Shown: one piece after another, positions 19,443-19,484 of the stretch
Layout of the letters: each line of letters opens with the position of its first letter
Position numbering within the stretch: position 1 is the first letter of the stretch
Virus record (IMG/VR): IMGVR_UViG_3300002835_001102
Span: 1 to 23,693 of that record
Length of the DNA: 23,693 nt
Direction: 5' to 3' (one strand)
Origin: a virus
Notes under the pieces: model-generated
Databases searched by the model: none
Seen by the model: the letters and a program-made list of their open reading frames with translations, nothing else
What the model was told of the DNA's origin: nothing
Made by a program: the position numbers and the translations under genes

Positions 19443-19484
19443 CATCATTACCAATGATGCGCTCTACCACTGAGCTACGGCGGC
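19443..19484 (-). other. 5' half of tRNA-Thr(GGT): candidate attP core
   Basis: On the minus strand these 42 bases are a perfect tRNA 5' half: acceptor strand GCCGCCG, TA, D-arm GCTC-AGTGGTA-GAGC, G, and a complete anticodon arm CATCA-TTGGTAA-TGATG with anticodon GGT (19452-19450). After it the sequence leaves the tRNA pattern: no variable loop, T-arm (TTCGA) or 3' acceptor follows. The fragment lies beside an HNH gene and an integrase, the usual surroundings of an attachment site. Most tRNA-targeting phages carry the 3' part, so a 5' part is unusual. Confidence 0.7.

Follow-up and report, generated by a model that had tools for sequence, protein, structure and literature searches.

The window, a 23,693-base virus record from IMG/VR, carries the 5' half of a tRNA-Thr(GGT) gene directly behind an HNH endonuclease gene, which in turn follows the gene for a tyrosine integrase. 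We consider it very likely that this half gene is the attP site of a temperate podovirus-like phage of Caulobacteraceae and that the integrase makes its crossover within the tRNA-Thr(GGT) anticodon loop. Most tRNA-integrating elements bring the 3' half of the gene, with the host promoter staying in charge. Comparison with related integrases that carry the 5' half (5'-type) or the 3' half (3'-type) suggests a change of side within the window clade.

The tRNA-Thr(GGT) 5' half and its host counterpart

On the minus strand, positions 19484 to 19446 read GCCGCCGTAGCTCAGTGGTAGAGCGCATCATTGGTAATG and are followed by ATGATTCATATC (Table 1). The 39 nt comprise the acceptor 5' strand, the D-arm, and the anticodon stem-loop with GGT. 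The exact match to the tRNA thus extends from nt 1 to just past the anticodon loop; it goes on to 19442 with a single mismatch (A for C at 19445), position 19443 corresponding to tRNA nt 42. Neither a T-arm nor a 3' acceptor strand follows the 5' half in the window, which therefore has the arrangement of a 5'-half island (an attP with the tRNA 5' half through nt 1 and without the 3' half). ARAGORN and the Rfam gathering thresholds gave zero tRNA calls in the window; the half scores 25.9 bits with the tRNA covariance model, for which the cut-off is 29. An earlier note, made from the letters alone, had described a 5' half with acceptor strand, D-arm, and anticodon arm, followed by an abrupt loss of the tRNA pattern and flanked by phage-type genes. 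The sequence and the sub-threshold score bear out the first part of this description. The second is borne out by the tyrosine integrase and HNH_3/NUMOD4 genes, in a virus record that also has an SU10-type capsid gene and a portal gene, within which its 5' edge lies.

As the note had proposed, the 5' half was compared with genomic tRNA-Thr(GGT) genes, and it proved identical over 39 nt in 15 Caulobacteraceae MAGs. When the genome collection was scanned with the pattern GCYGCYGTAGCTCAGTGGTAGAGCGCATCATTGGTAATG, the acceptor GCCGCCG was found as in the phage at 15 of the 20 loci, every one in Caulobacteraceae/Caulobacterales MAGs. On contigs that are long enough, the match continues into a complete tRNA-Thr(GGT), GCCGCCG...TTGGTAATGCTGAGGTCGG...CGGCGGCACCA. 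The match to the host tRNA is 43 nt long in the related viral contig L002 and 39 nt, then one mismatch, in the window. The fact that a 39-nt exact match begins at tRNA nt 1 excludes chance. Upstream of nt 1, phage and host have zero sequence in common.

A 31-nt core of the 5' half is present in 318 of the 390 genomes of the family of G003, as a single copy in nearly all of them. The two-copy genomes (n = 7 among the 390, of which all but G263 were inspected) revealed no lysogen of the window clade. None of the six is a clear case of a 5'-type prophage: G039, G074, and G174 have complete tRNAs at both places, and G093, G175, and G182 have close tandem copies by position. Contig C3 of G039 carries two complete tRNA-Thr genes 21 kb apart (L142 1139-1213, L143 2099-2173) with the same downstream hairpin; the one in L142 is preceded by a frame that resembles a truncated aldo/keto reductase and ends within the tRNA.

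The integrase region

The residues R183, K208, H270/R273, W296, and Y305 of the catalytic site are invariant in the integrase alignment, and the protein is a member of the Phage_integrase family. Its best PHROG families are phrog_1 and phrog_216 (bacterial phage integrases).

Table 1. Features of the integrase and attachment region of the window.
Feature	Position	Strand	Basis
tRNA-Thr(GGT) 5' half, tRNA nt 1-39	19446..19484	(-)	Exact in 15 Caulobacteraceae tRNA-Thr genes; same element in four viral contigs
Inferred core CATCA-TTGGTAA-TGATG, with the anticodon stem as inverted core half-sites	19443..19459	(-)	Sequence and host tRNAs
Anticodon loop TTGGTAA (tRNA nt 31-37), inferred 7-bp overlap/crossover	19448..19454	(-)	Sole stretch common to 5'-type and 3'-type blocks
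Putative P' arm-type site TTGGGAAATTTTTGGGAGGC	19308..19327	(-)	20-nt perfect repeat of 19571-19590
Second copy of TTGGGAAATTTTTGGGAGGC, P side, within HNH gene, putative P arm-type site	19571..19590	(-)	Repeat
Conserved P' arm motif AACGTTCCGTGAA	19341..19353	(-)	Kept across types
Tyrosine integrase	20018..21055	(-)	Pfam Phage_integrase 9.5e-17; catalytic residues; tree position
HNH_3/NUMOD4 endonuclease gene, between int and attP	19475..19978	(-)	Pfam 1.4e-12 and 1.5e-6; PHROG HNH endonuclease 1.1e-30
ORF overlapping int start, helix-turn-helix stretch, possible excisionase	20842..21348	(-)	L002 equivalent matches HTH_17 below the cut-off
85-aa ORF downstream of attP, same direction	19044..19301	(-)	ORF list; no Pfam match

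In the window, the stop codon TAG of the HNH gene (19477-19475) coincides with tRNA nt 8-10. The gene is absent at the equivalent place in L002 and in three further viral contigs, L042, L043, and L044. There it is the integrase gene that ends within the tRNA: the L002 integrase ORF ends ...NKTSPP*, with TAG as tRNA nt 8-10, and L042, L043, and L044 have GCCGCCGTAGCTCAGTGGTAGAGCGCATCCTTGGTAAG behind an integrase gene whose stop codon is again tRNA nt 8-10. The HNH gene of the window has come between int and attP, its stop now occupying the same tRNA position. Within the gene lies the second copy of the putative P' arm-type site, perfect over 20 nt, at a distance to the tRNA start that is about that of the equivalent P arm site of L002. 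Insertion of the gene may have taken place upstream of the P arm, with its reading frame running on into the arm and the attP geometry thereby being kept. As the P side was altered by the HNH gene, the window phage may be integration-impaired.

The equivalent in L002 of the helix-turn-helix stretch scores 25 bits with Pfam HTH_17, below the cut-off of 27, and a similar ORF lies ahead of int in the 3'-type relatives L027 and L028. A 14-nt perfect inverted repeat, GATTTTTGCGGTCG, has one arm in the HNH gene (19669-19682) and the other at the 3' end of int (20076-20089). Elsewhere in the window, a minus-strand ORF (22695-23312) has long alanine-rich repeats (GCN runs, AAADAAAAAA) and no Pfam match.

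Viral contigs with the same 5' half

The same 5' half lies behind the integrase gene in four other viral contigs, with integrases that are 94% (L002) or 51-55% (L042-L044; 52-55% when the best segment is taken) identical to that of the window. Across the five contigs, the tRNA half is identical except for nt 30 (A or C) and the final one or two positions, whereas the DNA around it has diverged. Integrase half-sites are typically roughly 11 bp long and lie next to the overlap. The identical acceptor and D-arm part reaches beyond such a core-binding site, in contrast to its diverged surroundings; the simplest interpretation is that tRNA function has been selected for. L042 and L043 have a short hairpin, AAAGCCC...GGGCTTT, that ends right before tRNA nt 1 (about 4995-5022); its equivalent in L044 is possibly CCCC...GGGG, with apparent compensating changes.

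Relatives with the 3' half and the position of the crossover

A single-sequence integrase scan of the genome contigs gave zero matches; whole-genome searches of the family and the order gave matches. Two of the integrases, L027 (54%) and L028 (52%), are located in Caulobacteraceae genomes. Behind each integrase gene is a bare tRNA-Thr 3' half that begins exactly at TTGGTAAGG, and at the far end, 49.3 or 55.7 kb off, there is an intact tRNA-Thr composed of the host 5' half and the phage 3' half. Two complete 3'-type prophages, of 49 and 56 kb, are thus mapped at both ends. Because these sister phages carry the 3' half, the host promoter keeps driving the restored tRNA. Related prophages bounded at another site would have spoken against the reading of the earlier note; L027 and L028 use the same anticodon loop.

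The note had also suggested that the crossover be mapped, and the match blocks of the two types place it in the anticodon loop. The 3'-type block extends from TTGGTAA to the tRNA 3' end; the 5'-type block starts at nt 1 and stops one to six bases past TTGGTAA. Since they intersect only at this 7-nt loop, the crossover can be mapped without experiment. Seven nucleotides is the canonical overlap length. Both the loop and the stem half-sites of an anticodon-loop crossover are present, as judged from match blocks and not from cleavage; the core half-sites are perfect in the window and have one mismatch (TGCTG) in the host tRNA and in L002.

The flanks of the core are also related between the types. 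The P' site TTGGGAAATTTTTGGGAGGC is conserved in other 5'-type and in 3'-type P' arms, and the second P' motif has the form ACGTTCCGTGAA in each of the five 5'-type attP sites and the form AACGTTCCGCGAA in L028, a 3'-type prophage. Both the P arms (TGGGAG...TGGGAGG) and the P' arms (ACGTTCCG...TGGGA.AT...TGGGA) can be aligned between 5'-type and 3'-type. The interpretation as attP, which the earlier note had offered conditionally, is thereby strengthened on three counts: the same 5' half behind int in four phages, homologous P and P' arms, and blocks that overlap only at the loop.

A maximum-likelihood tree was computed for 35 integrases whose att sites had been classified. In it, all five 5'-type integrases group together (98/94) in a clade that is nested among 3'-type integrases; its sister group consists of the 3'-type integrases L045 (= L027), L028, and L046, followed by the 3'-type L121. 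Given this nesting, the window clade most likely once bore the 3' half and exchanged it for the 5' half. The 5'/3' label requires three changes in the full tree, the other two concerning L130 with L089 (tRNA-Ser) and L055. In L055 and L089, the 5' halves are on the strand opposite int, so that the geometry is different.

L055 carries a tRNA-Thr(GGT) 5' half and L089 a tRNA-Ser(GCT) 5' half; the L055 record also encodes a tRNA-Thr(TGT). In the 3'-type sister L046, the tRNA half is inverted relative to int, so that orientation as well as side has changed in the clade. L071, called as a complete tRNA-Thr by ARAGORN, was rejected because it is a 3' half whose 5' side fits by chance. The best isolate match for the window integrase is that of Acetobacter phage phiAX1, which is 3'-type.

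An integrated 5'-type element at tRNA-Ser(GCT)

The order-wide search led to integrase L130 in genome G481 (contig C6), whose gene has a complete tRNA-Ser(GCT) downstream of it on that strand. The 33-nt 5' part of this tRNA has one further occurrence in G481, a bare 5' half on contig C2 that keeps the ancestral upstream region. The empty site is represented in four congeners (G489, G541, G434, and G445). Upstream of the C2 half, the sequence is 77-84% identical over up to 2.4 kb in congeners, where it runs into an intact tRNA-Ser, which has the same upstream region as the C2 half. Beyond the C6 tRNA, after a variable stretch, the sequence is collinear with the congener DNA downstream of the intact tRNA-Ser. 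G695 was rejected as a connection between the two flanks of G481, since its genes are in a rearranged order there; the collinear flanks of G489, G434, G541, and G445 were used instead. Contig C6 carries genes for portal, terminase, protease, tape measure, repressor, and integrase, and C2 one for endolysin; both contigs end within the element.

This layout, together with the empty sites of the congeners, indicates that a prophage placed the only intact tRNA-Ser(GCT) found in G481 behind its integrase gene. The ancestral promoter is, judging from the flanking DNA, left on the bare 5' half by the integrated prophage. The insertion persists though the only copy found of this tRNA has lost its original promoter. 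The case involves a more distant integrase and a different tRNA, and is split over two contigs. The integrated form that the earlier note had predicted is thus represented by this more distant element, and no lysogen of the window clade was seen among the 390 family genomes.

Predicted expression after integration and alternative explanations

For the window phage itself, we infer integration from these comparisons. It would join the phage 5' half and the host 3' half into an intact tRNA, with the phage int region as its upstream DNA. The host promoter would stay at the other prophage end, ahead of the bare 5' half and phage DNA. The minus strand has neither a terminator-like site nor a sigma-70-like promoter in the stretch from int to the tRNA half; since Caulobacteraceae host tRNA promoters differ from that consensus, the negative promoter result carries little weight. 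After integration, tRNA-Thr would be transcribed by int-HNH read-through or from an unrecognised phage promoter, and the apparently single-copy tRNA would thus be tied to the prophage. We tentatively propose, as a possibility rather than a probability, that the clade switched sides while keeping its crossover and arm sites, that the tRNA came under int-region transcription and the displaced promoter passed to phage genes, and that loss or silencing of the prophage harms the host.

The main gain might instead lie in the displaced host tRNA promoter, which, without a tRNA terminator, would drive phage genes at the far end. Same-direction ORFs follow attP in the window and in L002, and in a lysogen the 85-aa ORF of the window would come after that promoter. 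Likewise, the next same-direction gene after the bare half in G481 codes for a PMT_2 glycosyltransferase-like protein, and the strong hairpin that follows the 3' half on the P' side of 3'-type elements is absent from the 5'-type. However, the long ORF after attP has the opposite direction in L042 and L044, and part of the C2 stretch in G481 matches a congener and so may be host DNA rather than cargo. We consider it doubtful that promoter gain is the main benefit; such a gain is compatible with the attP explanation and does not exclude it.

Under tRNA-dependent lysogeny, the host tRNA would be destroyed and a complete phage tRNA would compensate, the 39-nt match being only a long core. This is known in mycobacteriophages (PMC10865867), and Roseobacter phage CRP-810, whose integrase is accompanied by a complete tRNA-Thr(GGT) and by a short core, looks like a further case. 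For the window phage it is very unlikely: an RF00005 search for a complete phage tRNA of the same isotype, which the earlier note had regarded as a sign that the half is a relic, found none in the window, L002, L042, L043, and L044 records, which are fragments and may be incomplete. Moreover, the match reaches tRNA nt 1, far beyond a short core (about 10 bp, PMC10865867), and suffices to rebuild the gene. In CRP-810 (OR671924.1; L176 2457-2567), the complete tRNA-Thr(GGT) is unannotated and the anticodon-loop core CCTTGGTAAGG lies about 20-30 nt upstream.

A tRNA gene relic, or a leftover from past transduction, without a role in integration is hardly credible. It is true that tRNA fragments are common in phage genomes, that the HNH insertion adjoins the half in the window, and that no lysogen of its clade was seen among the 390 family genomes. 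However, the half occupies the same place behind int, with an identical start and an almost identical end, in five contigs with integrases differing in up to about half of their residues; it is flanked by homologous P and P' arms and joins the 3'-type block exactly at the anticodon loop.

Comparison with known systems

In the Islander set of 3,919 mapped islands, the displaced tRNA fragment is a 5' one in 159 and a 3' one in 3,760 (PMC4383910). The 5' half is rare, but it is less unprecedented than the note implied, given these islands and the pTN3-like integrases. The window feature belongs to the known rare 5'-fragment class (about 4% of islands), and the side switch inside a clade is the interesting part. 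As in the 5'-fragment islands of Islander, the tRNA would be restored with the 5' half of the element and a displaced 5' fragment left behind (PMC4383910). Unlike that count, which comes without phage family or mechanism, our set contains sister integrases that cross over in the same loop but carry the 3' half.

Archaeal pTN3-like integrases have their att site in the tRNA 5' half and their recombinant tRNA is described as being driven by the integrase promoter, which is "seldomly encountered in bacteria" (PMC8371274). The attachment site in the 5' half is shared with the window, whereas the window integrase, judged by its PHROG families, is that of an alphaproteobacterial phage, of phrog_1 type. 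The window anatomy, terminator-free and with the stop of the preceding gene at tRNA nt 8-10, would fit expression from the integrase promoter. An integrase gene followed by a tRNA in the same orientation is among two rare layouts that together account for <8% (PMC2951348).

In tRNA-dependent lysogeny (PMC10865867), the lysogen relies on the phage for an essential tRNA, as it may in the present case; here, however, the gene would be rebuilt at the junction, with only the 5' half and the upstream region coming from the phage.

Another close parallel is provided by the 3'-half integrases L027/L045, L028, and L046, which belong to the same clade and have the same crossover loop and homologous arm sites. 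They differ in carrying the 3' half, with the host promoter still driving the restored tRNA. For a specialist, such matched pairs of 3'-type and 5'-type sister integrases would be the material of choice: with opposite halves and the same crossover, they make the cost or benefit of a tRNA under phage control directly measurable.
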